Positions 308 to 62,486 of a DNA stretch of 64,000 nucleotides are shown here, one piece after another (position 1 is the stretch's first letter; the number at the start of each line of letters is the position of its first letter). The position numbers and the translations under genes were made by a program. This DNA is from Aphrocallistes beatrix (Eukaryota; Porifera; Hexactinellida; Sceptrulophora; Aphrocallistidae). The notes beneath the pieces were generated by a model. The model ran no database searches and was not told the DNA's origin. It was given only the letters and a program-made list of their open reading frames with translations. Location: positions 2,480,001-2,544,000 of the forward strand of contig OY725496.1 in the NCBI GenBank assembly GCA_963281255.1. The letters are read 5' to 3'.

Positions 308-757
308 TACAAGCGCGCTTCGCGTACTTGCGCTGCAGCCGCGGCGTGCGGGCACTTTGTGTCTGCCAGAGGGGCCCTTTGGGCGCAAGGGCTCACATTG
401 ATAAATTATAAGGGAGATAACAACTCTAAATAAGTCTGTATTACTGTTAAATTCGATATCACTCGAAAAATCACAAAAAATGTCAAATTTTCTTTACGTA
501 ATGATGACGTCATAACAGGTGATGAGTCATCATTTTAGATGATAGTTGCATCATATGTGAGGTATATTAATATACACATTCTATTAAAATTTCAGCCTTC
601 TATCACCTAAAATGACTGAGTTATGGTCGAAAAACTGAAATTTCTAATTATAAAAAAGGTGACAATGACCTCACAATTACATGATGAGTCGACATTTTCG
701 TATGAGATCAGAACTGCCAAAAATCAGCTTTCTCTGCCTGCACACTTCATTATTTTA
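308..757 (+). repeat. Family H copy H1
   Basis: This copy starts at the GC-rich hairpin module (ACAAGCGCGCTTCGCG, then an arm pair GGGCAC/GTGTCT around TTT). It continues through the family's AT-rich body with one TGACGTCA (about 503-512) and TGAGTCA. The second TGACGTCA position reads GACCTCAC. The right end is lost before the family's TA microsatellite. The short frame at 623-817 lies across its end and is not a gene. Confidence 0.8.
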
Positions 758-829
758 CGTGCATTTAATACTAAAATGGGTCTATTAATGAATATTAAAC
801 TCCGAAACGGTAAGTGATACAACTAATTG

Positions 830-1164: not shown

Positions 1165-1696
1165 TATACAAGCGCGCTTCGCTTGCTTGCGCTGCGCAGC
1201 TGGCGGACACTTCGTGTCCGCCGGAGGCTCCCTTCGATCGCCTGGGGTGACATTGGTTAATTATAAGGGAGATATAAACTCCAAATATGTCCATCTTAGT
1301 TTTAAAATCGATATCACTCGAAAAATCACCAAATTTGTCAATTATAAAATTTTTGATGCGTAATGATAACGTCATAACAGAGTGATGAGTCATCATTTTT
1401 TGATGATAGTTGCGCCATATGTGAGATGTATAAATATACATAATCTATTAAAATTTCAGCCTTCTATCTCCTATAATGGCTGAGTTATGCCCGAATAACT
1501 GTGTTGCTTAACTTTTAAAAATGTGACAATGACGTCATAATTCCATGATAAGTCGACATTTTGCTCTGATCTCAGAGATACTGGAGCCATAGCCAAAAGA
1601 CTCCCACATGCCAAAAATCAGCCTTCTGCGCCCGGCAGTTTCTTCAATCAATTCGTTACAGATATATATACAATAATCGAGTTTAATAGTAAGGAT
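1165..1696 (+). repeat. Family H copy H2, full 3' end
   Basis: Hairpin module at 1168-1245 with arms GGCGGACAC/GTGTCCGCC around loop TTC. The second hairpin is degraded. The body carries one intact TGACGTCA (about 1530) and a decayed first one. It ends in a short TA repeat and ATAATCGAGTTTAATAGTAAGGAT-type terminus. Confidence 0.85.
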
Positions 1697-2230
1697 ATAT
1701 ATATCTGTAACGAATTGATTGAAGAAACTGCCAGGCACAGAAAGCTGATTTTTGGCATAGGGGAGTCTTTTGGATATGACTCCACTAAGTTCTGACATCA
1801 GACGAAAATGTTGACTTATCATGGAATTATGACGTCATTGTCACCATTTTTATAAATAGAAATTTCAGTTTTTCTGCCATAACTCAGCCATTTTAAGTGA
1901 TGGCTGAAATTTAATAGAATGTGTATATAAATATTCCTCACATCTGATATAATTATCATAAAAAAAGATGACTTATCACTGTTATAACATCATCATTACG
2001 TATTAAAACTTTAAAAATTGACTAATTTGGTGATTTTTCGCAAGATATCGATAATACGTGGTAGGATAGGCGATTTTAGGAATGCTATCTCCCTTATAAT
2101 TAATCAATGCGACCCCAGGCGCCCGAAGCGCAGCTCCAGGGGACACAAAGTGTCCTCCAGCCGCGCAGCGCACGCAAGCGAAGCGCATGTATATATATAT
2201 AAACATTAATGAAATTTTACTAATAAGGAT
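1697..2230 (-). repeat. Family H copy H3, inverted next to H2
   Basis: This is the inverse of H2, abutting it at ATATATATCTGTAACG, so the pair forms a long imperfect palindrome from about 1165 to 2230. The hairpin module lies at 2112-2190, reading toward the right, followed by TATATATATA and AAACATTAATGAAATTTTAC, a decayed form of the family terminus. Confidence 0.85.
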
Positions 2231-5570: not shown

Positions 5571-5603
5571 TTCTCTCTCTTTCTCTCTTTCTCTCTCTCT
5601 CTA
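5571..5603. repeat. TC-rich microsatellite
   Basis: Run of CT dinucleotides with occasional TTT interruptions inside the P-like element. Confidence 0.9.
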
Positions 5604-5626
5604 AAACAAAAGAACATTAAAAAATA

Positions 5627-5815: not shown

Positions 5816-5891
5816 AGTTATATATTTTTAGCTTAGTGTTATCTCTATTTCATCACTACGAATGTAGACTTCAGAAGAATGACATGACGCT

Positions 5892-6092
5892 CTAAATCGT
5901 TAAATTGGAAGCAACTTCTAGAATTTTAGTATACTCACTCTCTAAAACAATACTATTTTTTATCTTAGCATTAGTGATATTATGAATGGCATTATTCACG
6001 TGTTGAATCGAAGGGGTGGATGAGGAAATTACCTTCTCATTTTTAATAATTTCAAATAATTCGACTTCATTAATGATATTTTCCAATGACAT
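5892..6092 (-). CDS. Unrecognised 66-residue frame in the P-like element
   Basis: Starts MSLENIINEVELFEIIKNEK and ends at TAA. It lies downstream of the THAP exons on the same strand, so it could be a remnant exon of the element's transposase. I recognise no domain. It is acidic and helix-prone by composition. Multiple stops separate it from the THAP exons, so it is probably not translated with them. Confidence 0.25.
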   Translation of the reverse strand: MSLENIINEVELFEIIKNEKVISSSTPSIQHVNNAIHNITNAKIKNSIVLESEYTKILEVASNLTI

Positions 6093-6453
6093 GGTGTCGG
6101 TTAGTGAGTGGCAGGATAGTTAAATTTTGTTTGTTTCCATTATAAAAAGCCTTGTAATATAAATTTTCATTAATAATGATAGAAGGTTCGATTGTAGAAA
6201 TTTCATTATGATATTGTATCTTAAGAAAAAAGATGACCGTTGAATTTGATCAATAAATAACCCACCGACAGGGAGTTCGACTAGATGCAATTTAGAATTA
6301 ATACAATTAAGAGTAGAAATAGTAAACTTAGCTTCTATTTCTTTGAATTCCGCAAGACTTTTCTGATATGCTTCTTATATTCTCCTTTACTCCTTGTCAT
6401 ATAGTGATAGTCTTTGACAACTAACAGTAGCGTCCGTCAGATAACTATGACAG

Positions 6454-6968
6454 TTAGGAAAGATGCTTGGGACTGCCCTTCTTGAGACCCACTTTCTTCC
6501 TTTCCGTCTCAATCATCCTCAATCCATCTGAGAATTGAATGGTCATTTCGATGTCTTCTTCATGGAAATGGCGTATGCAGACCTTGAAATAAAAAACAAA
6601 TTACAATAGACTATTGTGATTAAAGTGTATTATCAAACATACCCTCAATCGTTTGTTCATCTCGTAGTCTTCTCTCCGCCGAGGTATAGCTCGGAACCAT
6701 TTTTCACAAGTTACATTGTCAGCAGGAAAAGAGAAAACAGGTTGGATTCATCTTATCACAATAGTTTGACTTACAACCAGCATACATGCCAACCTGAGTC
6801 ATGATAAAATCGGGACGCAGCGTTGAAAAAAAAGCGGGACATAATGGGGAAATTTCATTTAAAAGCGGGACACTCGATAAAATGAGGTCAAGAGGAGGGT
6901 GAAAAAAGCGGAACGTCCCGCCAAAACGGGACAGTTGGCAAGTATGAACCAGGTACCAGACGAGCCAT
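6454..6968 (-). pseudogene. THAP-domain transposase remnant, broken by a MITE
   Basis: Exon 1 runs from an ATG at 6968 to 6643, exon 2 from 6582 to a stop at 6454, joined by a GT-AG intron (donor GTATGT, acceptor TTTCAAG). Visible THAP features: VPGCKSNY at the N-terminus, FSFPADN, a conserved Trp in EKWFRAIPRRE, and VCIRHF (zinc-binding Cys and His). THAP domains bind DNA through a C2CH zinc module and form the N-terminus of P-element transposases. Three lesions: a 166-bp MITE in exon 1 (6781-6946), a one-base frameshift near 6745, and Arg (CGT) where the first zinc-binding Cys is expected. The product would end soon after the domain (GSPKHLS). Non-functional. Confidence 0.75.
6781..6946. 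mobile_element. MITE with TACTTGCCAAC-type ends, inside the THAP exon
   Basis: Ends CATACATGCCAAC and GTTGGCAAGTATG, flanked by direct AACCAG (6775-6780, 6947-6952). The interior holds GGGAC/GTCCC repeats. Related to 61347-61550. Removing it and one AACCAG restores the THAP reading VPGCKSNY, which supports the borders. Confidence 0.8.
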
Positions 6969-9631
6969 GTTGAAAAGTATGCTGTGAATCGAGTAATAGG
7001 GTAGAATAGAGCAGACGTGATGTGAAGATGAATGTTGAATAGACAAGCGATGTGCAGATAGGTGATTTGAGTGAGTGACAATATTTTGAGAACATTTTGA
7101 AATATCGTAAAAATATTGTTTTTAATTATTATGGGTGACCAAAATGTGGTTAGTCATTTTATTCAGTGACGTTTATTTGACAGAAGTTGACACATATTGG
7201 TAAATTCACAGGCTTATTTCTAAGTAATTACATCAGTTCATCTATTTCCTGAACCCGAGGTTGTAAAAATCAAGATGTTGTCATTGTAAGGTGATGTATT
7301 CTGATATTTTTCACGCATAGATAGATGATGCAAATATCCAGGAAAATGAATTATTTCAGTTTCGGAAAATTATTCCAAAATATCTTCTAAGTAAGTAGAG
7401 AGTATATGAATTTATCATATTTAATCATAAAATCATAAAACTTGATAAATTAATTGTCTAGAAAGTTCGATGGTAATGGCCATCCATGGTCCAGATTTTG
7501 AATAGAGTGCCATTGCCTTAGTATATAGAATGCTATGATAATATATTATATCCTCAAATAAAGGATATATGCGAAAATATATAGTTTCCTCGAACATTCC
7601 TTTGTCAAGAAATAAATAATTATCGACTTATCATTGATTTAATTAGAATACAAATTCTATAGAGAACTTTGAATCTATTACAAAATGGCGAATCTAATCA
7701 TTAAATATGTATCCAAATTTAGCTATTATGCTAAATAATGAATACAATTGTCGTTAATAATGTGTACAGAAAAATTGGAGAACTTTTGATAATTATTTTG
7801 AAAGTTCTGGCCTTGGACCTCGCAGATTCGATCAAAAACCCCCATTTAGGGTCCAAAAGAGATATCTCTCTATCTCTGTAAATATAAGTCCAAATTCTTA
7901 GTTCTCACTTCCAAATATACTTTTTAGGAGTGTACATATATGATTCTTTGATAATAATTGCACTACACCCTATGGAATGTTAAGTTTTAGATTTTTGTCA
8001 TATGATGACGTAGCATTTTTCGAAAATCCTAACTTCGAAACTAAAAGTCGTAGACTTTCGCTCTAACTTCCTAATATACTTTTTGAAAGCTTTTTATCCA
8101 TTCTAAACTGATAGATTATACTTCGGAGTGCCAGGAATATGAATTATTATTTACAATTATCTCAAAATATTCGGAGTTAGGGGCCTCAAGGAAATTTGTG
8201 GATTTTCAGGGTACTTTTGACATTTTTTGTAAATACTTGGTTCTAATATACCTAAATGTGCAGTATGAATGCGAATAAATGTCTGTGAATGCTTTTGTTT
8301 ATTATTAATAACTCATTTTACATTCTTCTTGAACACCTAAACTTAAAATATCTATATCTCGGGACTTTAAAATTTCAAAATTGACCGTCTTTACAGATTT
8401 ATTTCTCAAATTTGGTTTGAGATAGCAGTTTGAAAATTTCAAGAGTTGTTCCATATCATTAGGCGATGAACGTAGGACCACCATCTTTTTGAGATATTCT
8501 AACTCTGTGATTTTTTTCCTGATTTCCCCAAAAAACAGACATTTTTCACCGTTTTTTGGCCCTTTTTTTCGGACACCGATAATATTTACAATTTTTGTCA
8601 TTTTAACTTTTTTCTGGTCCTATAAAGTTGCAAATATTGTAGACTATCTATGATTCGATTTTGGAAGCATTTGATTCCTTGGTATGTCCTAAACAATTCA
8701 TTGAGTGCCCAAATTTCTACCATTAAGATGTGCTAGCGGAAAACAAAAAAAACAGACTTTGAGACACTGTATCTCAAAAACTAGAAATGAGAATCAAAAA
8801 CGGTTTGGAATCTGCAAGTATTTCTTGATGGAGATACCTCCCCACGCTTAAATCTCTTATAGCTCTACTTTCATCGTATGCTGTAAGCCAAATCATGTGT
8901 TTTTTCGAGGGCGGTATCCTTAATGATTAAATTCGTCATTTTCTAATATATTCAAAGTTCTCCATCGAATTTGTATTACAATCAAATCAATGATAAGTCT
9001 GCAAATATTTATTTTTTGACAATGGATTGTTTGAGGAACCTATATATTTTCGCATAATTTTTTTTTCATTTAAGAATATAATAGATTATATATCTTCAAT
9101 AGTTTTTAAGATATGACATCGGCATCTTTCGGGAACATAGAGAGATTTTCTGCCCGAGTTTTACCTATAATAAGCGATATTTCACGAACAAATGGACGGA
9201 TCCGAGCAAAATTTTTTCTGAAACGATCACAATTTTATTTATGATCCAATGATCGCTAAATATCTGATATCAGGTAACAGGCAATTTCCCGAGCGTTATT
9301 TAAATGAACTCCCTTATACTGCTATTTTGTTTGGATTTTATTTTGCCTTCCTTCTAAATCTTTGTGTCATATAATCTCCAAAGGGGCCAAAAGAATGTTG
9401 AGGCCATATCATTAAAAAAAATATCAAGTATATTTAAAATACTAATTGGTGAATGCTTCAAAAACAATTTTTAGTAACGCTAAACTTTAGGGGGTTAACT
9501 CATAAAAATCGAAATAAATACCGTCCAGCTAGTACTATCAGATGGTAGACCGCTCAGTAATACAATGAAATTAACATTAAAAAATTTTGCCGTTTTTTTA
9601 CGCCAGCCAAAGTTATTCCAGGGCGGTATCC

Positions 9632-14210: not shown

Positions 14211-16394
14211 CAGGGCTTCTTAACCGGGGGGAATTTGGAAGATTTTTTTGGGAAATTTATTTCTCAAATTGGGTAAACCTTATAATATCTGCACAAAGTA
14301 AATTACATAAATATTTACAAAAGGTGACCAAAATATACAAGTAATCTGTTCAATATCCAACGCTATTAGTTTACAACTTGTTCATGTTCTCACTTGTTTG
14401 TAAGTAAACGATAGCCTTCAATTTATGCTATGATAATTATTGCATAATTATGGATTCTCTCTGAATTAACAACGTATTTAAGGAATTTAACTGGAATTAG
14501 AGATAATAATTATTTTTGTTTTGCTAGCTATATTAGTACACTATTTTATCTCCAGTCAGATTCTTTGTGATGTCCAAAAAAGAACCTACCACGACAGTTA
14601 CGTAAACTATAGATTTTCATGTCTTGATAAAAATGGAGTTCAACTCCCGCAATGTGTTCTGTGTTTGAAAACCCTTTCCAATAGTTCCATGAAGCCATTT
14701 CAGCTTAAACAACATCTTGAAACATTCATCCTGAGCACAAAGAAAATTGTCGCCAATTCTTTGAAACAAAATTAGAAAGTTTGAAAATAGTAAACTAGAC
14801 TCCAGTGGAACTTTTCGGAAGGCAACCAAAGCTATTGTCCACGCATCTTATGCTATTTCATACCAAATTGCAAAAAATAAAAAACCTCACACAATAGGAG
14901 AAACTCTGATAAAACCGTGTTTTTTAGAGTGCGCGCAGATTTTGTTCGGCAAAGCCTACAACAAGATAAGAGATGTATCTTTGTCAAAGGATACTGTGGC
15001 ATCACGGATTTGTGATATGGGTGATAATATCAAGAGTCAAGTTCTGTTGAAAATCACTTCATTGTTCGCTATTCAACTGGATGAGTCAACTGACGTTGCC
15101 AACCTTTCTCAGCTTCTTGTATTTGTGCGCTACTTAAACAATGTTGATCACAAAATTGATGAAGAATTTCTCTTCTGCAAGCCACTTGAAACCACTTCTA
15201 AGGGAACAGATGTAATGAAGTTAGTGACACAATATTTTGATTACAACTATTTGAGTTGGAAAAATTTGATCTGAGTGTGCACTGATGGTGCACAAGCGAT
15301 GTTGGGATCAAGGTCAGGATTTACCACTCTGGTGAAATCTAAAAACCCAGATGTTGTGTCCACACATTGTTTGATCCATCGAGAAGCTCTAGCATCAAAA
15401 ACTCTACCAGAAAAAGTTCGTTGGTTGACAAAGGGAAACATGTTGCACGATTCTTTGAATTGAGATATGAAGTGAAAACATCCCTGGAAGATCAAAAGAA
15501 ATTAGACTTACTTGCAGCCTTCAATAAGTCCACTTTTGAAACTTCATTAGCATACCTAGCAGATATTTTTGAGGAGCTTAACAAGCTTAATCTGCAGATG
15601 CAAGGTCGGAAAACAACGATTATCAAACACTGTGACAGTGTAAATGCATTTATTGCTAAGCTCAGTCTTTGGAGCAAGCGTATTAAAGAAGGAAATGCAG
15701 TTTCTTTTGATAGGTTGTCTATACTTCTCAGAGGACATCCTGTCGGTACAGAGCTTCAGATAGCTATCAGCAATCATCTTACAGCTCTTTGTGAAGAATT
15801 TAAGAGATATTTCCCTGGTATTGATACAGATGACATAACCATGAAGCTGACGAGGAATCCATTCAGGTGTCAAGTTCATGAAATCCCAGAAGATAAACAG
15901 GATGAATTCCTTGAGCTACAACACAATTCTTCTGCCAAGGATGAGTTTGAAGCTGTTGAAGACCTTGGCGATTTCTGGATGAAAATGCTACCAATATATC
16001 CACAACTAAGCAATGTTGCTTTGCGCATTCTACTACCCTTTTCAAACACATACATGTGTGAAGCAGGATTTTCAAGCGTACTAGAAATCAAATCGAATAC
16101 GAGGAGTAAACTGGATGTAGAAAATGATTTACGCTGTGCCCTCTCCAAAACATGCCCAGATATCGGGAAATTAGTATCAAAAAAGTGCAAGTGTCACATT
16201 AAATGCTAATACTAGAATCTTCCAGAATCTACTAGAATATAGAATATTAGATAAATACACGGTATACTCTAATATTCAGACCGTTGGTTAAAGAATATTA
16301 TAATACAATTTAATGTTAATAAGTCAGGGGGAGGGGAAGGATGTCTTGAAATTTCGCAAAGGGGTAACATGATTGTTTCGGTTAAGTAACCCTG
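14211..16394 (+). mobile_element. hAT (Buster/ZBED5-like) element, copy 1
   Basis: Ends CAGGGCTTCTTAACC and GGTTAAGTAACCCTG. The flanking octamers CTTTAACA and GTCTAAAA agree at five of eight positions, weak support for the 8-bp hAT duplication. It contains the broken transposase at 14563-16209. The inverted partner at 33469-34820 shares the 3' 1.3 kb nearly identically. Confidence 0.75.
14563..16209 (+). pseudogene. ZBED5-like hAT transposase, broken
   Basis: Visible parts in order: BED-like zinc finger (YRFSCLDKNG, CVLCLKTLSNSSMKP, QLKQHLETF) at about 14600-14730; RNase H-like core start (FAIQLDESTDVANLSQL) with a catalytic-type Asp at 15063-15120; CTDGAQAMLGSRSGF; THCLIHREALASKTLP; and the C-terminal dimerisation region (SNVALRILLPFSNTYMCEAGFS) to the stop. 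Lesions: TAG at 14773, TGA at 15273 where the other copy has GGA (Gly), about 40 residues missing between SKTLPE and KVRWLTKG, and a one-base frameshift within GGGAAACATG near 15440. The last two are shared with copy 2. ZBED5-type genes descend from Buster hAT transposases. Confidence 0.85.
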
Positions 16395-18812: not shown

Positions 18813-19411
18813 AAGCAACGTAGAGGTGTAGCTAAGCTAATTGAAACGTCAAATTTTCAATGAAGGAAATTGCTTCAATGTGTGGTGTCGATGGCTTATA
18901 ATGTTAAGCAACGGATTTCAGCGGGAGAAAGCATTGAGGGCAGGGGTGGAGCTGTGCCTAAAAGGCGCCTCAACAAAGGAGACAGGATCTCACTCTCTCT
19001 CAATATTAAAAACAATTCCCAAATTTCTTTGCGAACTATGCAGAGTAGTCTAAATTTTTCACGAATTGATGTGTCGTATTCAACGGTGAGGAGATGCATC
19101 AAAGGGATGTCTTATTCCAGGAAAACTGCCATCAAAGGACCAAATATTACTCCCTCCCATGAAACGTTGAGAATTTTATGGGCTAAGAAACATAAATTCA
19201 TCAATTGGAGGAACAAAGTCCTTTTTACGGATGAGTGTTCCATTTGCCTTTGTGGCGGGAAAGGACAGCTGTGGACCAAGGGTACTCAAAAGCACGTCAT
19301 TAACATTCCGAGACATTCACCATAGAGCCATATTTCGGGGGATATCTACTCGAGGAACTACTCCTGTGCATATTTTTAGAGAGAATTTCAATTCTATCGA
19401 ATATTGTAATG

Positions 19412-20442
19412 TAACAAGCGCGCTTCGCTTGCTTGCGCTGTGCGGCTGGCGGACACTTTGTGTCCGCCGGAGGCGCCCTTTGGGCGCCTGGGGTCACATT
19501 GAGTAATTATAAGGGAAATAACATCTCTAAATACGTCTATCCAACTGTTATAATCGATATCGCACGAAAAATCACCAAATTTATCAATTTTTAAAATTTT
19601 GATGAGTAATGATGACGTCATAACAAAGTGATGAGTCATCATTTTTTTGATGATAGCATCATATGTGAGGTATATTAATATACACATTCTCTTAAAATTT
19701 CAGCCTTCTATCTCCTATAATGGCCGAGTTATGCTCGAATAACTGTATTGCTTAACTTTTAAAAATGTGATAATGACGTCATAATTCCATGATGAGTCGT
19801 CATTTTCGTCTGTTTCAGAACTTGCCATAGACAAAAGACTCCCACATGCCAAAAATCAGCTTTCTGTGCCTGGCAGTTTCTTCAATCAATTCGTACAGAT
19901 ATGTATATATACAGGTAACCCTCGCCGTTCGCGGGTTTGCCATTCGCGGTTTCGACTATTCGCGGAAAAATTTTTGAGTCTTGTTTTGCTATTCGCGACT
20001 CGTTCCGTCGACTATTCGCGGTTTTCGTTGCTCTCTTCAGTAGTTTATGGGCTAGCATAAGTCCATAACCTTATACGTATCTACAATTTAGGTTTAGTAC
20101 TAAAGGCTAGACTTTACTATTTAGGTATGGTACTTAGGTTTGCTACTAGGGGATCTATATCTTTCATTTATCACTTCATTTATTACGTACTACCATTTTA
20201 CTTGTGCCAGTGTTTGTATGAGTATTACAGATCAACTATTGAATCAATAACGTATTTAGCAAATAGTATCTAGCGTCGTTTTTATAATCTAGGAACGTAA
20301 CCTCACCATTCTCATTGAACTAACGTCTTGCCGTTCGCGATTTTGCCATTCGCGACAATTCTCAGGAACGTAACCCCCGCGAACGGCGAGGGATACCTGT
20401 GTATATATATACAAACATTAATTGAGTTTTAATAGTAAGGAT
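19412..20442 (+). repeat. Family H copy H4, inserted in the Tc1 gene
   Basis: The cleanest hairpin module: arms GCGGACAC/GTGTCCGC around TTT and GGCGCCC/GGGCGCC around TTT, at 19414-19500. Two intact TGACGTCA sites (about 19614 and 19773) and TGAGTCATC follow. It ends ACAAACATTAATTGAGTTTT plus AATAGTAAGGAT. AATG appears on both sides of the insertion (19408-19411 and 20444-20447), a candidate 4-bp target duplication. A pogo-like MITE sits in its TA repeat. Confidence 0.9.
19911..20400. mobile_element. Pogo/Tigger-like MITE (490 bp) inside H4
   Basis: Ends ACAGGTAACCCTCGCCGTTC and GAACGGCGAGGGATACCTGT, set in a TA-rich site. CCATTCGCG and TCGCGGTTT repeats lie internally at both ends. CAGG...CCTCG ends and TA insertion fit pogo/Tigger families. 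Confidence 0.9.
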
Positions 20443-24080: not shown

Positions 24081-24618
24081 TACAAGCGCGCTTCGCTTGC
24101 TTGCGCTAGGCGGCTGGCGGACACTTTGTGTCCGCCGGAGGCTCCCTTCGGTCGCCTGGAGGTGACATTGGTTAATTATAAGGGAGATATCATCTCTAAA
24201 TATGTCCATCTTAGTTTTAAAATCGAAATCACTCGAAAAATCACCAAATTTGTCAATTTTAAAATTTTGATGCGTAATGATGACGTCATAACAAAGTGAT
24301 GAGTCATTATTTTTCGATGAAAGATCATATGTGAGGTATGTTAGTATACAGATTCTATTAAAATTTCAGCCTTCTATCTCCTATAATGGCTGAGTTATGC
24401 CCGAATAACTCTGTTGCTTAACTTTTAAAAATGTGACAATGACGTCATAATTCCATGATGAGTCGACATTTTGCTCTGAACTCAGAACTTACTGGAGCCA
24501 TAGCCAAAAAACTCCCACATGCCAAAAATCAGCCTTCTGCGCCCAGCAGTTTCTTCAATCAATTCGTTACAGATATATATATATATATAAACAATAATCG
24601 AGTTTTAATAGTAAGGAT
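24081..24618 (+). repeat. Family H copy H5, near full length
   Basis: Hairpin 1 perfect (GGCGGACAC TTT GTGTCCGCC), hairpin 2 degraded (GGCTCCC TTC GGTCGCC). Two intact TGACGTCA sites, (TA)n at about 24571-24588, and terminus AATCGAGTTTTAATAGTAAG plus GAT. Confidence 0.9.
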
Positions 24619-25264: not shown

Positions 25265-25582
25265 ATCCCTACTTTAAAACTCGATTAATGTGTGTTTATA
25301 TATTTACAAGCGCGCTTCGCTTGCTTGCGCTGCGCGGCTTGCAGACATAATGTGTCTTCCGGAGCCGCCCTTTGGGCGCCTGGTCTCACATTAATTAATA
25401 ATAAGGGGGATAGTAACTCTAAAACGTCTGTCTTACTGTTAAAATCGATTCACCCGAAAAATCACCAAATTTAATAATTTTTAAAATTTTGATGCGTAAT
25501 GATGACGTCATAACAGAGTGATACGTCATCTTTTTGACGATTATTGTATCACATGTGAAGAATATTAATGTATACATTCTAT
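25265..25582 (+). repeat. Family H copy H6, truncated at the inverted-arm junction
   Basis: Retains the left terminus (CTTTAAAACTCGATTAATG), a short TA region, and the hairpin module with decayed hairpin 1 (loop AAT). One TGACGTCA at about 25501. It stops abruptly at CATTCTAT, six bases before the left arm of the inverted duplication. Confidence 0.85.
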
Positions 25583-25587: not shown

Positions 25588-26990
25588 AACACCTGATCTC
25601 TATATTCTGTGAACATGGAGCACCTCACATCTTCCAGACAGATAACGGAGGTGAATTTACTAACATGCTGAATATGGCACTGCTCACTGAGTGGAAGAGC
25701 ACCCGGTTCGTAGATGGAAGGCCTCGGAAATCCACAGATCAAGGAAGCATTGCGCGAGCTAATCAAGATGTTGAGAAGCTGCTCTATGCCCGCCTCAGAT
25801 CATTGAAAAAGCCAATGGACCAATGGGTGAGTGAGTTAAAATATGTTCAATATACTAAGAATACTGTTAAACATTCTGCTCTGGCCCGTAGTCCCTTTGA
25901 GGTACACTTTGGGAGGACGCCCTGATCTATCTGTAGATTTGAAGCTCCCCCAAGAGTTGATAGACTCGCTCAACACCGGGGACGATGTGGAGAACGCTCT
26001 ACAGATGGGTGGCGAGATCATCGAATTCTCTAATCAAACTACCGAGACTACAGCAGTTCCTGTCCCACGATCGAGCACGCCTATCCTACCCCCACTCTCT
26101 CTCATGACTCTATGTCAGCTCAGAAGTGCTAATTCCTTCAGTCGATATTTCTAACCAAGTTGATAGTGACCAACAGCCTCAGCCATGTTCTTCATATAGC
26201 CCAGAACCTGTCCACAAGTACACCGAAGTTGAAGTTCTCTCCTCGCCTCTCTCTTCAACTGACGAACTGGATGAAGCGATTCTCTCAGAGCTGCATCCAG
26301 TACTAGTTCAGGATGTGGATTCTTACGACTTGGAAATTAAACCGCTATTAGGACTGATATTACACCATTTGTTAACCCAAATGATAGACTTCTTCCTCCC
26401 GATGTCGATCCAAAACTCCGATTTAACGGGAATGCTTGTGCTAATTGTGTACTGAATGATGAGGTTATGCCATTTGTTAAATGTTCCTACTGTACAGATA
26501 GCCTCAACTCACACACCACAGACTGTATAGTCAGTGTTGAGCCATATGGTGATAGAGACATACACTACTTTTGCACAAGGGATGATTACTGTGCACATGA
26601 ACTGCAGAGGCAATCAAATCGCAAGGGCGCCTTCCATGGGCTGTGTAAACAGGGTGAAGACATGATAACGTCAAGCAATAAGCGATTGAAGGCTATTCAT
26701 GCTGGGGATAATGTAATGATCTCCATTCTAGTAGTAGATAGGGCCCCCCCTTGGTCCGACCAGTCTATTCGGGATAGTAATGAAGTGCATTTATGATTGG
26801 CACCAAACATGGCATACTTTCTACTCCCTTGTCTTACTCAGATATTACACCAAGCAATACGACTCAACTATTACACCCTGAACAGGTATCAGACACACAC
26901 CTGTCGGTCCGAACGGCAGCACAGCTTAATGTAGGCGGTCCTACACATAATTTCTGCAAGTGCAAGACAGGATGTAATAATAATCGTTTT
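25588..26990 (+). pseudogene. KRBA2/Ginger1-type integrase, 3' part (left arm)
   Basis: Identical to the corresponding part of 27573-28975 on the other strand. Begins inside the integrase core at EHLISIFCEHGAPHIF and runs through QTDNGGEFTN, a frameshift after HFGRTP at 25924, the zinc-binding region CANC...KCSYC at about 26440-26520, and FCKCKTGC at the end, where a MITE starts. See the right-arm entry for interpretation. Confidence 0.85.
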
Positions 26991-27181
26991 ACAGTCGACT
27001 CTCGTTAACACGTACACCAAGGAACCGTGGAGATTTATACTCCTTATCCGGAGTACGTATTAACCCAAGTACGTACATAGCCACATTTGTCCAAAATACT
27101 TAATATACATAGTGATAACTACGTGAGAGTATAAAATTGTACTTGTCAAATAGAGAACTCATTATCCATGTTGTATTAACG
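25588..27181. repeat. Left arm of exact 1,594-bp inverted duplication
   Basis: Reverse complement of 27382-28975 with no difference that I could find, separated by the N gap. Contains the C-terminal two thirds of an integrase gene and the start of a MITE. Confidence 0.95.
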
Positions 27182-27572
27182 NNNNNNNNNNNNNNNNNNN
27201 NNNNNNNNNNNNNNNNNNNNNNNNNNNNNNNNNNNNNNNNNNNNNNNNNNNNNNNNNNNNNNNNNNNNNNNNNNNNNNNNNNNNNNNNNNNNNNNNNNNN
27301 NNNNNNNNNNNNNNNNNNNNNNNNNNNNNNNNNNNNNNNNNNNNNNNNNNNNNNNNNNNNNNNNNNNNNNNNNNNNNNNNNCGTTAATACAACATGGATA
27401 ATGAGTTCTCTATTTGACAAGTACAATTTTATACTCTCACGTAGTTATCACTATGTATATTAAGTATTTTGGACAAATGTGGCTATGTACGTACTTGGGT
27501 TAATACGTACTCCGGATAAGGAGTATAAATCTCCACGGTTCCTTGGTGTACGTGTTAACGAGAGTCGACTGT
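26991..27572. mobile_element. Tigger-like MITE containing the assembly gap
   Basis: Both outer ends read ACAGTCGACTCTCGTTAACA inward, so the pair looks like terminal inverted repeats with the gap between. The inner sequence is palindromic right up to the Ns, so the true centre is unknown. Relatives: 48507-48673 and fragments in introns of the Ginger1-like gene (near 11100 and 13090). Confidence 0.65.
27182..27381. other. 200-N assembly gap
   Basis: Exactly 200 unknown bases, a typical fixed scaffolding gap. The flanks are mirror images, so the join may be an artefact. Apparent frames across it are not genes. Confidence 0.97.
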
Positions 27573-28975
27573 AAAACGATTATTATTACATCCTGTCTTG
27601 CACTTGCAGAAATTATGTGTAGGACCGCCTACATTAAGCTGTGCTGCCGTTCGGACCGACAGGTGTGTGTCTGATACCTGTTCAGGGTGTAATAGTTGAG
27701 TCGTATTGCTTGGTGTAATATCTGAGTAAGACAAGGGAGTAGAAAGTATGCCATGTTTGGTGCCAATCATAAATGCACTTCATTACTATCCCGAATAGAC
27801 TGGTCGGACCAAGGGGGGGCCCTATCTACTACTAGAATGGAGATCATTACATTATCCCCAGCATGAATAGCCTTCAATCGCTTATTGCTTGACGTTATCA
27901 TGTCTTCACCCTGTTTACACAGCCCATGGAAGGCGCCCTTGCGATTTGATTGCCTCTGCAGTTCATGTGCACAGTAATCATCCCTTGTGCAAAAGTAGTG
28001 TATGTCTCTATCACCATATGGCTCAACACTGACTATACAGTCTGTGGTGTGTGAGTTGAGGCTATCTGTACAGTAGGAACATTTAACAAATGGCATAACC
28101 TCATCATTCAGTACACAATTAGCACAAGCATTCCCGTTAAATCGGAGTTTTGGATCGACATCGGGAGGAAGAAGTCTATCATTTGGGTTAACAAATGGTG
28201 TAATATCAGTCCTAATAGCGGTTTAATTTCCAAGTCGTAAGAATCCACATCCTGAACTAGTACTGGATGCAGCTCTGAGAGAATCGCTTCATCCAGTTCG
28301 TCAGTTGAAGAGAGAGGCGAGGAGAGAACTTCAACTTCGGTGTACTTGTGGACAGGTTCTGGGCTATATGAAGAACATGGCTGAGGCTGTTGGTCACTAT
28401 CAACTTGGTTAGAAATATCGACTGAAGGAATTAGCACTTCTGAGCTGACATAGAGTCATGAGAGAGAGTGGGGGTAGGATAGGCGTGCTCGATCGTGGGA
28501 CAGGAACTGCTGTAGTCTCGGTAGTTTGATTAGAGAATTCGATGATCTCGCCACCCATCTGTAGAGCGTTCTCCACATCGTCCCCGGTGTTGAGCGAGTC
28601 TATCAACTCTTGGGGGAGCTTCAAATCTACAGATAGATCAGGGCGTCCTCCCAAAGTGTACCTCAAAGGGACTACGGGCCAGAGCAGAATGTTTAACAGT
28701 ATTCTTAGTATATTGAACATATTTTAACTCACTCACCCATTGGTCCATTGGCTTTTTCAATGATCTGAGGCGGGCATAGAGCAGCTTCTCAACATCTTGA
28801 TTAGCTCGCGCAATGCTTCCTTGATCTGTGGATTTCCGAGGCCTTCCATCTACGAACCGGGTGCTCTTCCACTCAGTGAGCAGTGCCATATTCAGCATGT
28901 TAGTAAATTCACCTCCGTTATCTGTCTGGAAGATGTGAGGTGCTCCATGTTCACAGAATATAGAGATCAGGTGTT
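27382..28975. repeat. Right arm of exact inverted duplication
   Basis: Mirror of 25588-27181. Beyond 28975 the integrase gene continues to about 29490, whereas the left arm runs into H6. Confidence 0.95.
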
Positions 28976-30162: not shown

Positions 30163-30696
30163 ATACACAAACATTAATCCAGTTTTAATAGTAAGGACAA
30201 GAACACATCGCTTGCTTGCGCTGCGGGGCTGGCGGACACTTTGTGTCCACCGGAGGAGCCCTTTGATTGCCTGGGGTCACAATTATTAATTATAAGGGAG
30301 ATAGCATCTCTAATTACTTCTACCCTACTGTTTTGATCGATATCGCACGAAAAATCACCAAATTTGTCAATTTTTAAAATTTTGATGCGTAATGATGACG
30401 TCATAACAGGGTGATGAGTTATCATTTTTGGATAATTGTTGTATCACATTGGGAGAATATTAATGTACGCATTCTATTAAAATTTCGGCCTTCTATCACC
30501 TAAAATGGCTGAGTTACAGTCGAAGAACTGAAATTTCTAATCATGAAAAATGTAACAATGACGTCATAAATCCATGATGACTCGACATTTTCGTCTGAGC
30601 TCAGAACTTATTCGAGCCATAGCAAAAAAAAACCACATGCCAAAAATCAGCTTTACTTAACGACAGCAGTTTCTCCAATCAATTCGTTACAGATAT
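30163..30696 (+). repeat. Family H copy H7 behind an H terminus
   Basis: A right-hand H terminus (AACATTAATCCAGTTTTAAT, AGTAAGGA) lies directly before the hairpin module at about 30206, which has perfect arms GGACAC TTT GTGTCC. Two TGACGTCA sites follow (about 30398 and 30558). The right end passes into a family I end at 30697 without a terminus. Confidence 0.8.
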
Positions 30697-31744: not shown

Positions 31745-32310
31745 GTATCCTTACTATTAGAACTCGATTAATGTTTGTGTATGTGTGTATGTGTGTATAT
31801 ACATATACATCTCTGTAACGAATTGATTGAAGAAACTACCTGGCACAGAAAGCTGATTTTTGGCAAGTGGGAGTCTTTGGCTATGGCTCCAGTAAGTTCT
31901 GAGCTCAGAGCAAAATGTCGACTCATCATGGAATTATGACGTCATTGTCACATTTTTGAAAGTTAAGCAATACAGTTATTCGAGCATAACTCGGCCATTA
32001 TAGGAGATAGAAGGCTGGAATTTTAAGAGAATGTGTATATTAATATACCTCACATATGATGCTATCATCAAAAAAATGATGACTCATCACTTTGTTATGA
32101 CGTCATCATTACTCATCAAAATTTTAAAAATGGATAAATTTGGTGATTTCTCGTGCGATACCAATTATAGCAGTAAGACAGACGTATTTAGAGATGTTAT
32201 CTCCCTTATAATTAACCCAATGTGACCCCAGGCGACCGAAGGGAGCCTCCGGCGGACACAAAGTGTCCGCCAGCCGCGCAGCGCAAACAAGCGAAGCGCG
32301 CTTGTATATA
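31745..32310 (-). repeat. Family H copy H8, both termini regions
   Basis: Inverted copy starting TATCCTTACTATTAGAACTC and ending at CGCGCTTGTATATATATA. Both TGACGTCA sites intact (about 31936 and 32099). Hairpin 1 perfect with AAA in this orientation. A CAGGTTCCACTG end lies before and a CAGTGGAACCTG end after, pointing away from each other. Confidence 0.9.
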
Positions 32311-33468: not shown

Positions 33469-34820
33469 TAGGGGTTCTTAACAGAAACAATCATGTTACC
33501 CCCTTGCGAAATTTCAAGACATCCTTCCCCTCCCCCTGACTTATTAACATTAAATTGTATTATAATATTCTTTAACCAACGGTCTGAATATTAGAGTATA
33601 CCGTGTATTTATCTAATATTCTATATTCTAGTAGATTCTAGAAGATTCTAGTATTAGCATTTAATGTGACACTTGCACTTTTTTGATACTAATTTCCCGA
33701 TATCTGGGCATGTTTTGGAGAGGGCACAGCGTAAATCATTTTCTACATCCAGTTTACTCCTCGTATTCGATTTGATTTCTAGTACGCTTGAAAATCCTGC
33801 TTCACACATGTATGTGTTTGAAAAGGGTAGTAGAATGCGCAAAGCAACATTGCTTAGTTGTGGATATATTGGTAGCATTTTCATCCAGAAATCGCCAAGG
33901 TCTTCAACAGCTTCAAACTCATCCTTGGCAGAAGAATTGTGTTGTAGCTCAAGGAATTCATCCTGTTTATCTTCTGGGATTTCATGAACTTGACACCTGA
34001 ATGGATTCCTCGTCAGCTTCATGGTTATGTCATCTGTATCAATACCAGGGAAATATCTCTTAAATTCTTCACAAAGAGCTGTAAGATGATTGCTGATAGC
34101 TATCTGAAGCTCTGTACCGACAGGATGTCCTCTGAGAAGTATAGACAACCTATCAAAAGAAACTGCATTTCCTTCTTTAATACGCTTGCTCCAAAGACTG
34201 AGCTTAGCAATAAATGCATTTACACTGTCACAGTGTTTGATAATCGTTGTTTTCCGACCTTGCATCTGCAGATTAAGCTTGTTAAGCTCCTCAAAAATAT
34301 CTGCTAGGTATGCTAATGAAGTTTCAAAAGTGGACTTATTGAAGGCTGCAAGTAAGTCTAATTGCTTTTGATCTTCCAGGGATGTTTTCACTTCATATCT
34401 CAATTCAAAGAATCGTGCAACATGTTTCCCTTTGTCAACCAACGAACTTTTTCTGGTAGAGTTTTTGATGCTAGAGCTTCTCGATGGATCAAACAATGTG
34501 TGGACACAACATCTGGGTTTTTAGATTTCACCAGAGTGGTAAATCCTGACCTTGATCCCAACATCGCTTGTGCACCATCAGTGCACACTCCGATCAAATT
34601 TTTCCAACTCAAATAGTTGTAATCAAAATATTGTGTCACTAACTTCATTACATCTGTTCCCTTAGAAGTGGTTTCAAGTGGCTTGCAGAAGAGAAATTCT
34701 TCATCAATTTTGTGATCAACATTGTTTAAGTAGCGCACAAATACAAGAAGCTGAGAAAGGTTGGCAACGCCAGTTGACTCATCCAGTTGAATAGCGAACA
34801 ATGGTGATGAAGTGATAGCA
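33469..34820 (-). mobile_element. hAT (ZBED5-like) element, copy 2, 5'-truncated
   Basis: Inverted, nearly identical to the 3' 1.3 kb of copy 1. Outer end TAGGGGTTCTTAAC, the hAT end seen in copy 1 with C changed to T. The 5' part, including the zinc finger, is missing beyond about 34820. Confidence 0.85.
33654..34801 (-). pseudogene. ZBED5-like transposase fragment
   Basis: Frames 34801-34400 and 34496-33654 encode the core and C-terminal dimerisation region. Differs from copy 1 by a few substitutions (Gly instead of stop in IGVCTDG; Lys to Gln in EDQKQLDL; Asp to Gly in ESTG). Shares the one-base frameshift and the 40-residue deletion with copy 1, so both derive from one already defective element or from a duplication. 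Confidence 0.85.
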
Positions 34821-38060: not shown

Positions 38061-38864
38061 TACAAGCGCGCTTCGCTTGCTTGCGCTACGCGGCTGGCGG
38101 ACACAGAGTGTCCGCCAGAGGTGCCTTCGGCCGCCTGTGGTCACCATTGATTAATTATATGGGAGATAGCATTTCTAAATACGTCTGCCCTACTGTTATA
38201 ATCGATATCGCACGAAAAATTTCCAAATTTGTCAATTTTTAAAATTTCGATGTGTGATGATGACGTCATAACAGAGTGATGAGTCATCATTTTTGGATGA
38301 GAGTTGTATCATATGTGAGATATATTAATATACACATTCTAAGTTTCAGCCTTCTATCACATAAAATGGTTGAGTTATAGTCGAAAAACTGAAATTTCTA
38401 ATTACAAAAAAGGTGACAATGACGTCATAATACCATGATGAGTCGACATTTTCCACTGAGCTCAGAACTTAGTGGAGCCATAGCCAAAAGACTCGCACAT
38501 GCCAAAAATCAGCTTTCTACGCCTCGCAGTTTCTTCAATCAATTCGTTAAATATATAGTATATATGTATATATACTTAGCCTGTCCAAAAGTATTGGAAC
38601 ACATTCTAATGTCTACCACCATGTGCCATAGGTGGCACAGGTGGCAGGGAAACGGGCCCATTGAAGGAAATCAACAAAAGTTTAGTGGAAGAGGTCAGAG
38701 GGACAGTTTCTATTGATATCACAATGTTTACACTTGTTTAATATTGTATTCAATGGGTTGTGCCTCTTTGGCAAAAGTGGCACACATTAGAATGTGTTTT
38801 AATACTTTTGGTTAGGCAGTGTATATATATATATATACATTAATCGAATTTTAATAGTAAGGAT
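38061..38864 (+). repeat. Family H copy H9 with MITE insertion
   Basis: Hairpin 1 perfect with loop AGA instead of TTT (GGCGGACAC AGA GTGTCCGCC). Two TGACGTCA sites (about 38261 and 38421). The TA repeat is split by a mariner-type MITE at 38575-38821; the terminus ATTTTAATAGTAAGGAT follows. Confidence 0.9.
38575..38821. mobile_element. Mariner-type MITE in H9
   Basis: Ends CTTAGCCTGTCCAAAAGTAT and ATACTTTTGGTTAGGCAGTG set in TA-rich sequence; inner CACATTCTAATGT is mirrored by ACATTAGAATGTG. Confidence 0.8.
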
Positions 38865-43970: not shown

Positions 43971-43989
43971 TATAAAAACCTCGTGATGA

Positions 43990-44380
43990 AATTTTAGCTT
44001 ATAATGAATTCATTGATTCGTACTTGATAGATCAGATAGAACAAGTGATATAGAATTTCTTTCTTGAATAATTTTCAAAAAATTCATTTTTATCTTTTTT
44101 ATATTAATGACTATTTAATGATCAAATTGATTGAGCATAAGATATAGCACACTACAAGTATTATTGTTGCCATCCGAATATAATAATCTTTGATAATATG
44201 AACTTCGTAGATTCAAATTTGCATTACATTCGGGGATAGTTTGCTTTATATGAAGTAAATTCTATTAACATGACCCTAATATTTCTACTACAGCTCAGAT
44301 TTCATTAATGTAACCCTAGACACAATTCAGCAATCCTTAGTAGAGAAACAGAAAGCGACGTACTGTTTCTTTGATGTCCC
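43990..44380 (+). repeat. Family I copy, partial
   Basis: GATCAAATTGATTGAGCATA and TTCATTAATGTAACCCTAGA match 31100-31390 in order. It runs straight into an isolated hairpin module. Confidence 0.6.
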
Positions 44381-44448
44381 CAGGTGCCTACAGGGCGACT
44401 CTGCGGACACAAAGTGTCCGCAAGCCGCACAGCGAAGCTAGCTTGTAT
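44381..44448 (-). repeat. H10: hairpin module alone
   Basis: TGCGGACAC AAA GTGTCCGCA with CGCACAGCGAAGC following, and GGTGCCTACAGGGCGAC before. No trace of the rest of family H on either side. Confidence 0.85.
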
Positions 44449-45838: not shown

Positions 45839-48215
45839 TTAGAAGCGCGCTTCGCGATTGGCCGACACTGTGTCCGCCGAAGGCGCCCTGCGGCGCCTGA
45901 GGTAATATTGATTAATTATAAGGGAGATAACACCTCTAAATACGTCTGTCCTACTGTTATAATCGATATCGCACCAAAAATCACAAAATTTGTCAATTTG
46001 ATAAATTTTGATGTATAATGATAACGTCATAACAGAGTGATGAGTGATTATTTTTTGATGATAGTTGTATCATATGTGAAATATATTAATATACATATTC
46101 TATTAAAATTTCAGCCTTCTATCACTTAAGGATACCGCCCTCGAAAAAACACATGATTTCGCTTACAGCATACGATGAAAGTAGAGCTATAAGAGATGTT
46201 AAGCGTGGGGAGGTATCTCCATCAAGAAATACTGGCAGATTCCAAACCGTTTTTGATTCTCATTTCAAGTTTTTGAGATACAGTTTCTCAAAGTCTGTTT
46301 TTTTTGTTTTCCGCTAGCACATCTTAATGGTAGAAATATGGGCACTCAAGGAATTGTTTAGGACATACCAAGGATTCAAATGCTTCCAAAATCGAATCAT
46401 AGATAGTCTACAATATTTGCAACTTCATAGGACCAGAAAAAAATTAAAAAGACAAAAATTGTAAATTTTATCGGTGTCCGAAAAAAAGGGTCAAAAAACG
46501 GCGAAAAATGTCTGTTTTTGGGGGGAAATCAGGAATAAAATCACCGAATTAGAATATCTCAAAAAGATGTTGGTCCTACGTTCATCGCCTAATGATATGG
46601 AACAACTCTTGAAATTTTCAAACTGCTATCTCAAACCAAATTTGAGAAATAAATCCGTAAAGACGGTCAATTTTGAAATTTTAAAGTCCCGAGATATAAA
46701 GATTTTAAGTTTAGCTGTTAAGAAGAATGTAAAATGAGTTATTAATAATGAACAAAAGCATTCACAGACATTTATTCGCATTCATACTGCTGATTTAGGT
46801 ATATTAGAACCAAATATTTATAAAAAATTTCAAAAGTACCCTGAAAATACACAAATTTCCTTGAGACCCCTAACTCCGAATATTTTGAGATAATTGTAAA
46901 TAATAATTAATATTCCTGGCACTGCGAAGTATAATCTATCAGTTTAGAATTGATAAAAAGCTTCCAAAAAGTATATTAGGAAGTTAGAGCGAAAGTCTAC
47001 GACTTTTAGTTTCGAAGTTAGGATTTTCGATAAATGCTACGTCATCACATGACAAAAATCTAAAACTTAACATTCCATAGGGTGTAGTGCACTTATTATC
47101 AAAGAATCATATATGTACACTCCTAAAAAGTATATTAGGAAGTGAGAACTAAGAATTTAGACTTATATTTACAGAGATAGAGAGATATCTCTTTTTTGAC
47201 CCTAAATGGGGGTTTTTGACCGAATCTGCGAGGTCCAATGCCAGAACTTTCAAAATAATTATCAAAAGTTCTCCAATTTTCTGTACACATTATTAACGAC
47301 AATTGTATTCATTATTTAGCATAATAGCTAAATTTTGACACATATTTAATGATTAGATTCGCCATTTTCTAATGGATTCAAAGTTCTCCATAGAATTTGT
47401 ATTACAATTAAATCAATGATAAGTCGAGAATTTTTATTTTTTGTCAAAGGAATGTTCGAGGAACCTATAATTTCGCATATATCCTTTTATTTGAGGATAT
47501 AATATATTAGTATATATCTACAATAGTTTTTAAGATATGACATCGGCCTCTTCCGGGACCTTAGAGGGATATAATGCCCGAACTTTACCTATAATAAGCG
47601 ATATCTCAAGAACAAATGGTCAGATCCAAACAAATTTTTTTTGAAACGATCAGAATTTTATTTCTGATCCAGTGATCGCTAAATATCTGAGAACAAACTT
47701 GTGATTTCCCGAGCATTATATAAATGAACTCCCTTATAGAGCTATTTTTCTTTGGATTTTATTTGCACATTCTTTTAAATCTTTGTGTTGTATAATCTCC
47801 AAAGGTACCAAAACAATGTTAAGGTCCATTTCATTAAAAAATTATCAAATAATTTAAAAAATAATTGGTAAATGAGCTAAAAACCTCCAAAAAATTTTCA
47901 CTTTTTATTAACGCTAAACTTTAGGGGGAAAAATACCGTCCAAATAGTGCTATCAGATGGTAAACCTATCAGTAATACAATGAAACTAGCAATAAAAATT
48001 TTTTTTTTACTCCAGGCACGGTTTTTCGAGGGCGGTATCCTTAAAATGGCTTATGGGCGAAAACTGAAATTTCGAATTATAAAGAGGTGACAATGACGTC
48101 ATAATTCCATGATGAGTCGACGTTTTGGTCTGAGCAAAGAACTTAGTGGAGCCATAGCCAAAAGACTCCCACATACCAAAAATCTGCTTTCTGTGCCTTG
48201 CAGCTTCTTCAATAA
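45839..48215 (+). repeat. Family H copy H11, interrupted by A5
   Basis: Left part 45839-46129, right part 48041-48215. Hairpin 1 has lost part of its loop; hairpin 2 is perfect with a different loop (AGGCGCC CTGC GGCGCCT). Right-hand TGACGTCA intact (about 48096). The split lies in CTATCAC|TTAA|AATGGCT, which reads CTATCACCTAAAATGGCT in H1. Confidence 0.9.
46130..48040 (+). mobile_element. Family A copy A5, complete (1,911 bp)
   Basis: Ends GGATACCGCCCTCGAAAAA and TTTTTCGAGGGCGGTATCC, flanked by TTAA (46126-46129, 48041-48044). A useful reference copy because it has no insertion. Interior words match A1-A4 throughout. Confidence 0.95.
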
Positions 48216-55349: not shown

Positions 55350-55432
55350 ACAAGCACGCTTCGCTTGCTTGCGCTGCGCGGCATGCGGACACTGCGTGTC
55401 CGCAGAGTCGCCCTGCTGGCGCCTGGAGTCAC
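55350..55432 (+). repeat. H12: hairpin module alone
   Basis: CAAGCACGCTTCGCTTGC, then perfect hairpin GCGGACAC TGC GTGTCCGC with changed loop, then CGCC CTGCT GGCG. It stops at GGAGTCAC, exactly where the AT-rich body of family H would begin; that body is absent. Confidence 0.88.
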
Positions 55433-55463
55433 TCATTCAAACATATTTTGGAATTTTTTTCCT

Positions 55464-57249: not shown

Positions 57250-57485
57250 CACAAGCGCGCTTCGCTTGCTTGCGCTGCGGGGCGCTGTCAGACACTTTGT
57301 GTTTGCCAGACGCACCCCTGAGGTGCCTAGGCTCACACTGGTTAAAGATAGCACATCACTCGAAAAATCACCAAATTCGTCAATTTTTCAATTTTTGGTT
57401 GCGTAATGATGACCTCATAACAGACTGGTGAGTCATCATTTTTAATGAGAATTGTACCATATTTGAAATATATTAATTCACTTTA
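57250..57485 (+). repeat. Family H copy H13, truncated
   Basis: Hairpin 2 has changed on both sides together (GCACC CCTGA GGTGC instead of GGCGCC), keeping its pairing. TGACGTCA positions are decayed. Stops in the middle of the body. Confidence 0.85.
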
Positions 57486-59734: not shown

Positions 59735-60288
59735 TACAAGCGCGCTTCGCTTGCTTGCGCTGCGCGGCTGGCGGACACTTCGTGTCCGCTGGACGCTCCC
59801 TTCGGTCGCCTGGAGGTGACATTGGTTATTTACAAGGGAGATATAATCTCTAAATATGTCCATCTTAGTTTTAAAATCGATATCGCTTGAAAAAACAATT
59901 TTTAAAATTTTGATGAGTAATTATGACGTCATAGCAAAGTGATGAGTCATCATTTTTTGATGATAGTTGCATCATATGTGTGACTTGTTAGGATACAGAT
60001 TCTATTAAAATTTCAGCCATCTATCTCTTATAATGGCTGAGTTATGCCCGAATAACTGTGTTGCTTAACTTTTAAAAATGCGACAATGACGTCATAATTC
60101 CATGATGTGTCTACATTTTGCTCTGAGCTCAGAACTTACTGGAGCCATAGCCAAAAGACTTCCACATGCCAAAAATATGCTTTCTACGCCTGACAGTTTC
60201 TTCAATCAATTCGTTACAGATATATATATATATATACACATATATATACTATATACACAAACATTAATCGAGTTTTAATAGTAAGGAT
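59735..60288 (+). repeat. Family H copy H14, near full length
   Basis: Hairpin 1 perfect with loop TTC; hairpin 2 degraded. Two TGACGTCA sites (about 59923 and 60086). A long TA repeat precedes ACAAACATTAATCGAGTTTT and AATAGTAAGGAT. Confidence 0.92.
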
Positions 60289-62036: not shown

Positions 62037-62486
62037 TACAAGCGCGCTGCGCGGCTTGGGGTCACATCGATTAATTATAAGGGAAATAACATCTCTAAAT
62101 ACGCCTGCCCTACTGTTATAATCGATATCGCACGAAAAATCACCAAAATGATCAATTTTGAAAATTTTGATGAGTAATGATGACTCATAACAAAGTGATG
62201 AGTCATCATTTTTTATGATAGTTGTATTATATGTGAGGTATGTTAGTCTACAGATTCTATTAAAGTTTCAGCCTTCTATCTCCTATAATGGCTGAGTTAT
62301 GCTCGAATAACTGTATTGCTTAACTTTTAAAAATATGACAATGACGTCATAATTCCATGATGAGTCGACATTTTGCTCTGAGCTCAGAAGTTAGTGGAGC
62401 CATAGCCGAAGGACTCTTACATGCCAAAATCAGCTTTCTGACTGGTAGTTTCTCCAATCAATTCGTTACAGATATATCCTTACTAT
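62037..62486 (+). repeat. Family H copy H15, lacking both hairpins
   Basis: ACAAGCGCGC joins directly to TGCGCGGCTTGGGGTCAC, so the two hairpins are missing while both flanks of the module remain. The body is near complete with one TGACGTCA (about 62342). Ends in GATATATCCTTACTAT. Confidence 0.88.

Follow-up and report, generated by a model that had tools for sequence, protein, structure and literature searches.

A three-hairpin module is the 3' terminus of very abundant short non-autonomous Helitrons in the hexactinellid sponge Aphrocallistes beatrix

Helitrons are mobile elements for which rolling-circle copying has been proposed. According to the textbook description, canonical Helitrons finish at their 3' side in CTRR, with a hairpin usually 10-12 bases inside that end. 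Recognition of the 3' end, and the capture of neighbouring DNA when this end is missed, have been tested experimentally with Helraiser, a reconstructed bat element (PMC4778049). In the excerpts of that report on which we draw, the 3' hairpin is a transposition terminator, deletion of which leaves about 9% transposition and lets the transposase run past the end; the stem is exchangeable, a change of the loop is harmful, and circles with joined ends form, for which the palindrome is not required (PMC4778049). Another paper, likewise drawn on in excerpt, has interpreted the same hairpin-deletion data as little effect (PMC6544945). Here we analysed a window of the A. beatrix genome, by which we mean the whole stretch of 64,000 nucleotides at positions 2,480,001 to 2,544,000 of contig OY725496.1 (assembly GCA_963281255.1). 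An initial annotation of this window, made from its letters, had singled out a GC-rich double-hairpin module of which the structure, rather than the sequence, was thought to be kept by selection or by a copying mechanism. We find that this module is, on the minus strand, the 3' terminus of very abundant short non-autonomous Helitrons (family H).

Hairpin 1 (19448..19468, minus strand), evident in the sequence, in a core search and in the fold, pairs GGCGGACAC with GTGTCCGCC over 9 bp around a three-base loop that reads TTT on the plus strand, and hairpin 2 (19471..19489, minus strand), evident in the sequence and in the fold, pairs AGGCGCCC with GGGCGCCT over 8 bp around another three-base loop, TTT. 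The GC content of the module is 67%, against 35% for the window, and the DNA fold of the minus strand over 19414-19500 has a z of -5.6, equalled by 0 of 200 shuffles, a strong outcome of the folding that had been suggested as a check. The core GCGGACACNNNGTGTCCGC, with up to three mismatches, was matched 11 times in the window where 0.01 matches were expected, and in the 100.5 Mb assembly there are 3485 exact copies of the hairpin-1 core and 0 of its backwards control, so the module is not due to chance. With the 89-base stretch as query, nhmmer returned 14 modules in the window and one further weak match, which is the opposite strand of the palindrome within one of the 14; a further copy (62038..62476, minus strand, from edge comparison) retains the outer edge and lacks hairpins 1 and 2. 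The earlier observation of the module is thus confirmed. A body-only copy lies at 48042. Rfam has no curated family match at the module, its single match in the window lying elsewhere, and an exact IMG/VR search with the last 24 bases of the element gave 0 matches.

The outer edge of the module is sharp, falling at 19415 on the minus strand; its sequence, CAAGCGCGCTT, is common to the copies, and the flanks outside it are unrelated. At this edge stands a third hairpin, CAAGCG/CGCTTG (19415..19431, minus strand, from sequence and DNA folds), which includes the terminal CTTG. In an alignment of 76 modules, 95% of the cells of hairpin 3 pair, 3 of the 76 rows carry two extra bases that extend its stem to 8 bp with a three-base loop, and zero two-sided changes stand in its support; an alternative fold predicted for the 3' end of a long element described below (L053) counts against hairpin 3 there. 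Further copies of the 3' module, placed by nhmmer and alignment as are the next four, lie at 309..400 (minus), 2095..2186 (plus) and 25306..25397 (minus), one with an altered terminus lies at 45847..45928 (minus), and modules of a second type (the F2 rows) lie at 44374..44442 (plus) and 55350..55441 (minus). The hairpin-2 variants that the initial annotation had pointed to are as described there: the arms are perfect in its copy H4, they are paired around a different loop in the copy at 45847, and they read GCACC/GGTGC in the copy at 57251..57342 (minus).

The copy that carries the three hairpins spans 19415..20441 on the minus strand (minus-strand coordinates 43560-44586), with paired ends, a 5' TC at 20441, where the element begins TCCTTACTATT..., and a 3' CTTG at 19415. 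Full copies with two paired ends were also found at 1169..1695 (minus), 24083..24617 (minus), 31748..32304 (plus) and 59737..60287 (minus), and an 801-bp copy with two ends, for which an empty site was found, lies at 38063..38863 (minus). Most elements are 0.53-0.58 kb long; the first of these copies reaches 1027 bp because another element, foreign to the Helitron, is nested inside it (19900..20411). Read on the minus strand, the layout is A|TCCTTACTATTAAAACTCGATTAATGT-(TA)n-AT-rich body-hairpin 2-hairpin 1-hairpin 3, ending CTTG|T. At the far end of many full copies a (TA)n microsatellite is followed by a fixed stretch ending ...TTTTAATAGTAAGGA and then by T, and a 28-mer of this fixed 5' end has 955 + 937 exact occurrences in the assembly.

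Ends were counted by fuzzy search in fetched sequence, leaving out the overlapping loci L001, L006, L038 and L041-L043, which were likewise excluded when modules were collected and when flanks were joined. The 5' end starts with TC in 53 of 56 cases and the 3' end finishes with CTTG in 63 of 67, both counts being biased upward by the presence of TC and CTTG in the search motifs. No such bias affects the flanking bases: 51 of 53 TC ends are preceded by A and 60 of 63 CTTG ends are followed by T (the host T at 19414 is one example), where A and T each make up 31% of the DNA. When the flanks of 36 paired ends were joined by script, unoccupied sites were recovered in other copies of the matched repeat; six of the alignments were printed, the junction being ungapped in all six and three of them containing no gap anywhere. 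Insertion is between A and T, without target duplication. In the one copy searched, 8 inverted pairs were present and none connects the two element ends (repeats of at least 12 bases, shorter or offset ones falling outside the search). The TC and CTTG ends, the A^T target, the empty sites and the lack of an inverted repeat between the ends are features of Helitrons. Elements also abut with no gap at all, in the window at 30170..30288 (minus), where a 5' end reaching 30197 meets the following element, whose 3' end is at 30198 and whose module runs to about 30288, in locus L007, and, with another type of 5' end, in L054. The distance between family-H copies is often no more than a few to tens of bases, in either relative orientation, as seen in L003, L005, L009, L014, L023 and L025, loci that were chosen for their H copies.

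The window holds other repeats as well. The nested element at 19900..20411, recognized by its inverted repeat, has inverted ends of 36 bp (CAGGTAACCCTCGCCGTTCGCGG...), and we take it to resemble a MITE of pogo/Tigger type; an open reading frame (ORF) fragment just beyond the 3' end of the same Helitron copy, at 18864-19325, is presumably Tc1/mariner-like. Two nearly identical ORFs of 288 codons stand in opposite orientation at 15343-16209 and 33654-34520, and we assume from their appearance that they are pieces of a hAT-type transposase. A long inverted duplication at 26108-28455 surrounds a run of N near 27.1-27.5 kb and includes ORFs of identical translation at 26341-26796 (plus) and 27767-28222 (minus); it may be either an assembly artefact or a real palindrome. 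The single Rfam match, at 1626-1740, is to MIR395, a plant microRNA family, with 56.5 bits against a cut-off of 56; it sits where two family-H copies of opposite orientation meet, near 1695, and is probably a chance match to the inverted repeat that they form.

Long elements with matching ends are present in the same genome, in which the Pfam domain Helitron_like_N has 106 matches, many of them fragmentary. The most informative, L053, is an element of 9.5 kb (39-9543 of its locus), of which the 5' end matches that of family H at 93% of 28 bases and the 3' module at 91% of 88, ending CTTG|T. Its ORF (723-6599, stop-to-stop, 1959 codons) scores above the Pfam cut-offs for Helitron_like_N, PIF1 and Pif1_2B and, at the N-terminus of this RepHel protein, for a stretch of STPR repeats (PF21107); six Pfam families are found in all in this one element, none of them an endonuclease. 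The ORF also contains the motifs HAH and YLYKY, which we take to be the HUH and two-tyrosine motifs. In several copies the N-terminal part of the RepHel gene consists of tandemly repeated units of about 69 bases, and a paper search gave no literature match that combines Helitron and STPR. Among the best 120 of 2759 protein relatives, identity is 38-53%, and those that are named come from animals, fungi and plants. L054, L055 and L056 form a second RepHel lineage, which shares about 69% identity with L053 over 4 kb of DNA; the 3' end of L054 bears the same kind of module with CTTG, the 3' ends of the other two lying beyond the fetched stretches. In all likelihood family H is mobilized by a RepHel element of the L053 kind.

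The first approximately 500 bp are common to the short family-H elements and the long RepHel element, and in all five long copies of which the start was read (L053, L047, and L069, L070 and L071, stretches just upstream of L044, L048 and L052) this H-like beginning ends in a truncated module, which breaks off within the loop of hairpin 3 or immediately ahead of it and is without the CTTG arm. Given common ancestry, the truncation shared by these five copies may be one event; no internal module was found near the start of L054, L055 or L056, which belong to the other lineage. Near its 3' end, L053 carries another module without the CTTG arm, followed by the last approximately 150 bases of an H element, and L054 similarly has a decayed module followed by the last approximately 120 bases of one. 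Unlike in L053, the corresponding first module is intact and terminal in L073, taken by distance and orientation to be the far end of the L048 copy. L072 and L074-L075, fetched for the far 3' ends of long copies, contained none. Read-through would be in keeping with elements that lose their terminator and then acquire a different 3' end, and recombination could yield the same product. A tentative extension of this idea, which we hold to be possible though doubtful, is that the terminator decides autonomy: in family H an intact module would stop the copying, in the long copies the broken one would let it run through the gene to the next terminator, one arm of the CTTG-CAAG stem of hairpin 3 may guide the cut, and L053 and L054 each look as if they had borrowed a working H end.

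The suggestion that paired changes with free loops mark a selected structure was examined within the family. From 80 modules, four with a score below 45 were left out to give the 76-row alignment, in which merging of identical rows leaves 73 distinct ones. Paired cells make up 90.0% of the stems, compared with 89.6% after shuffling, and 27 of 500 shuffles reach the observed level. There are 10 cells with a two-sided paired change; shuffling gives 4.8, with 4 of 500 shuffles reaching 10, and sliding the partners gives 10-13. The covariation score is 0.066 against 0.061 when shuffled (18 of 500 as high) and 0.013-0.040 in six slid versions, a lead over the slid versions that is expected because the structure was derived from the same sequences. 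Across the 65 rows that are not of the second type, and counting as changed a base held by fewer than 15% of rows, private changes affect 5.7% of the hairpin-1 stem, 5.1% of the hairpin-2 stem, 5.9% of the linker and 6.4% of the adjacent body, with lower rates in hairpin 3 (stem 3.3%, loop 2.9%). One-sided changes in the stems number 133, of which 88 abolish pairing and 45 result in G-T, and private double changes at partners number 11 against 7.6 in a within-sequence null (P = 0.088), with 7 of the 11 pairing. It seems that hairpins 1 and 2 are hardly protected as the copies decay. The loop of hairpin 1 is indeed freer than its stem (21 of 180 against 65 of 1139 private changes), as had been remarked; with slid controls as high as the partners, a P of 0.088 and stem rates near those of the surroundings, the reading of paired change as a sign of selection did not hold up within the family. 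The stems are conserved in sequence as well as in structure.

Since paired CpGs could mutate in step, CpG decay was considered as a source of double changes; the window has a CpG observed/expected ratio of 0.84. The genome-wide tests used two pairs that contain no CpG, 59-71 and 61-69, and kept every other stem base fixed. Pair 61-69 shows 348 one-sided and 11 two-sided changes, where at most 8.7 of the latter were expected. Two non-partner combinations together give 27 double changes, where an even split of the changes would predict about 16.5; even where nothing pairs, double changes are thus about 1.6 times as frequent as independence would give, and pair 61-69 is not in excess. At pair 59-71 there are 331 one-sided and 39 two-sided changes against at most 7.9 expected, a count about three times the level set by the non-partner control, and 37 of the 39 are A-T. 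Twelve of these 37 copies were fetched, a sample that, being selected for the A-T pair, is uninformative on how well that type keeps its stem; 11 belong to another module type (TCTGCGAACAC...GTGTTCGCTAGC and variants) and one (L066) is H-like, L068 being classed by its module although its tip falls among H copies in the tree because its flank includes an H copy. The CTTG-like ends suggest that the other type is itself a Helitron family. With 11 of 12 copies of another type, most of the excess at this pair appears to reflect an old, fixed difference between families, which is the explanation by ancestry that the initial annotation had named beforehand as counting against its own proposal. In the second module type, 11 of the 76 rows, the outermost pair of hairpin 1 is T-A in place of the G-C of family H (with one gap shifted by eye). 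Selection on active elements would be expected to leave such paired differences between families, but few events of this kind are seen. In hairpin 2, the form carrying two adjacent mismatches occurs 1022 + 1067 = 2089 times genome-wide against 774 for the perfect form, and the 3' end of L053 carries the mismatched form, counts that weigh against strict pairing. Adjacent G-A mismatches can be stable in hairpins, and the fold of hairpin 2 may survive them.

If selection or palindrome correction maintained the hairpins copy by copy, as it might in a structured RNA that is transcribed, the strong fold, the surplus of two-sided paired cells over shuffles and the A-T double changes at pair 59-71, including the one in L066, would be in keeping with it; set against these are stems that change about as often as linker and body, controls (slid and non-partner) that match or exceed the partner counts save at pair 59-71, and the lack of an Rfam family at the module, and we regard this account as very improbable. 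A structured RNA was set aside on the Rfam result together with the insertion evidence of A^T ends and empty sites. The elements could alternatively belong to the Helitron2/Helentron branch, as HINE or DINE-1-like elements, and not to the canonical Helitrons. Short abundant hairpin elements with a microsatellite are known from that branch, DINE-1 having a microsatellite and 3' stem-loops, and family H resembles them in its internal (TA)n near one end, its strong 3' hairpins and its high copy number. Insertion at A^T, the lack of a terminal inverted repeat between the ends in the copy searched for repeats of at least 12 bases, and the absence of an endonuclease domain among the six Pfam families of the L053 ORF, however, argue against this assignment, which we consider very unlikely. 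That a DDE transposase moves them as MITEs or foldback elements would suit short, abundant, AT-rich and non-coding sequences; this explanation was rejected, and is scarcely credible, because terminal inverted repeats of at least 12 bases in the copy searched and target duplications at the empty sites are both lacking, and the ends are moreover common to the RepHel element.

The module is very probably the 3' hairpin array of abundant non-autonomous Helitrons and would act as a rolling-circle stop-and-cut signal. Two ends, a target, empty sites, a RepHel element with the same ends and a conserved array are observed; pausing, cutting and circle formation would follow by analogy with Helraiser. 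The RepHel protein of a long Helitron with matching ends would nick at the 5'-TC, unwind and copy onward from there, be made to pause by the hairpin array and cut after CTTG, and the copied product would be inserted between A and T; the last hairpin may contain the cut site. Of the two agents first proposed for the module, selection or a copying mechanism, it is the latter that we infer, in the form of Helitron transposition, from the ends, the target and the partner element. Several points count against a terminator: in Helraiser the stem is exchangeable and the loop sensitive, whereas here the stem of hairpin 1 is kept and its loop varies; the commonest form of hairpin 2 has two mismatches; and the excerpted reports have Helraiser circles forming without the palindrome (PMC4778049) and see little effect of its deletion (PMC6544945). 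Against a canonical Helitron count the CTTG in place of CTRR and a terminal hairpin at the very end and not 10-12 bases inside it.

The genome offers thousands of natural terminator copies, to judge from the exact hairpin-1 cores, and of more than one type, and intact and broken terminators occur in short and long elements, so that the question of which hairpin is decisive is partly answerable by sequence comparison. The same material calls for caution, as dead copies of one hairpin can mimic compensatory evolution, which makes it necessary to check family ancestry and non-partner controls.

Among known systems, the literature searched, seen partly as titles and abstract starts, contains no description of the family-H sequence or of a three-hairpin Helitron end, and among the matches listed nothing on Helitron 3' ends in connection with terminators and read-through or with compensatory change and covariation; the earlier statement that no family with this module is described therefore stands for the exact sequence and fails for the kind of element, the Helitron being already known. 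Elements of the Helitron2/Helentron and DINE-1/HINE group are also short and very abundant, with hairpins and a microsatellite (PMC5148889, in excerpt), and have asymmetric terminal inverted repeats, hairpins at both ends or an endonuclease domain of their own, none of which was seen in family H or L053. Helraiser and Helibat (Helitron1) are alike in the 5'-TC, in A^T insertion without duplication, in a 3' palindrome, in having a RepHel partner and non-autonomous relatives, and in ends joined end to end, as far as the excerpted report describes them (PMC4778049); family H differs from them in CTTG instead of CTRR, in three hairpins instead of one, and in a last hairpin that reaches the end instead of standing 11 bases inside it. 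HELPO2 of Pleurotus ostreatus shares the CTTG 3' end, A^T insertion and a subterminal hairpin, and differs as a fungal family for which the excerpted text does not describe a three-hairpin array (PMC4289320). CTTG ends have also been remarked upon for maize and for new Helraiser ends (PMC4778049, in excerpt), and since CTTG is reported as a Helitron end in HELPO2 and maize, we take its use in place of CTRR as known Helitron variation. New here are the three-hairpin end and the long elements whose earlier module copies have lost that end.
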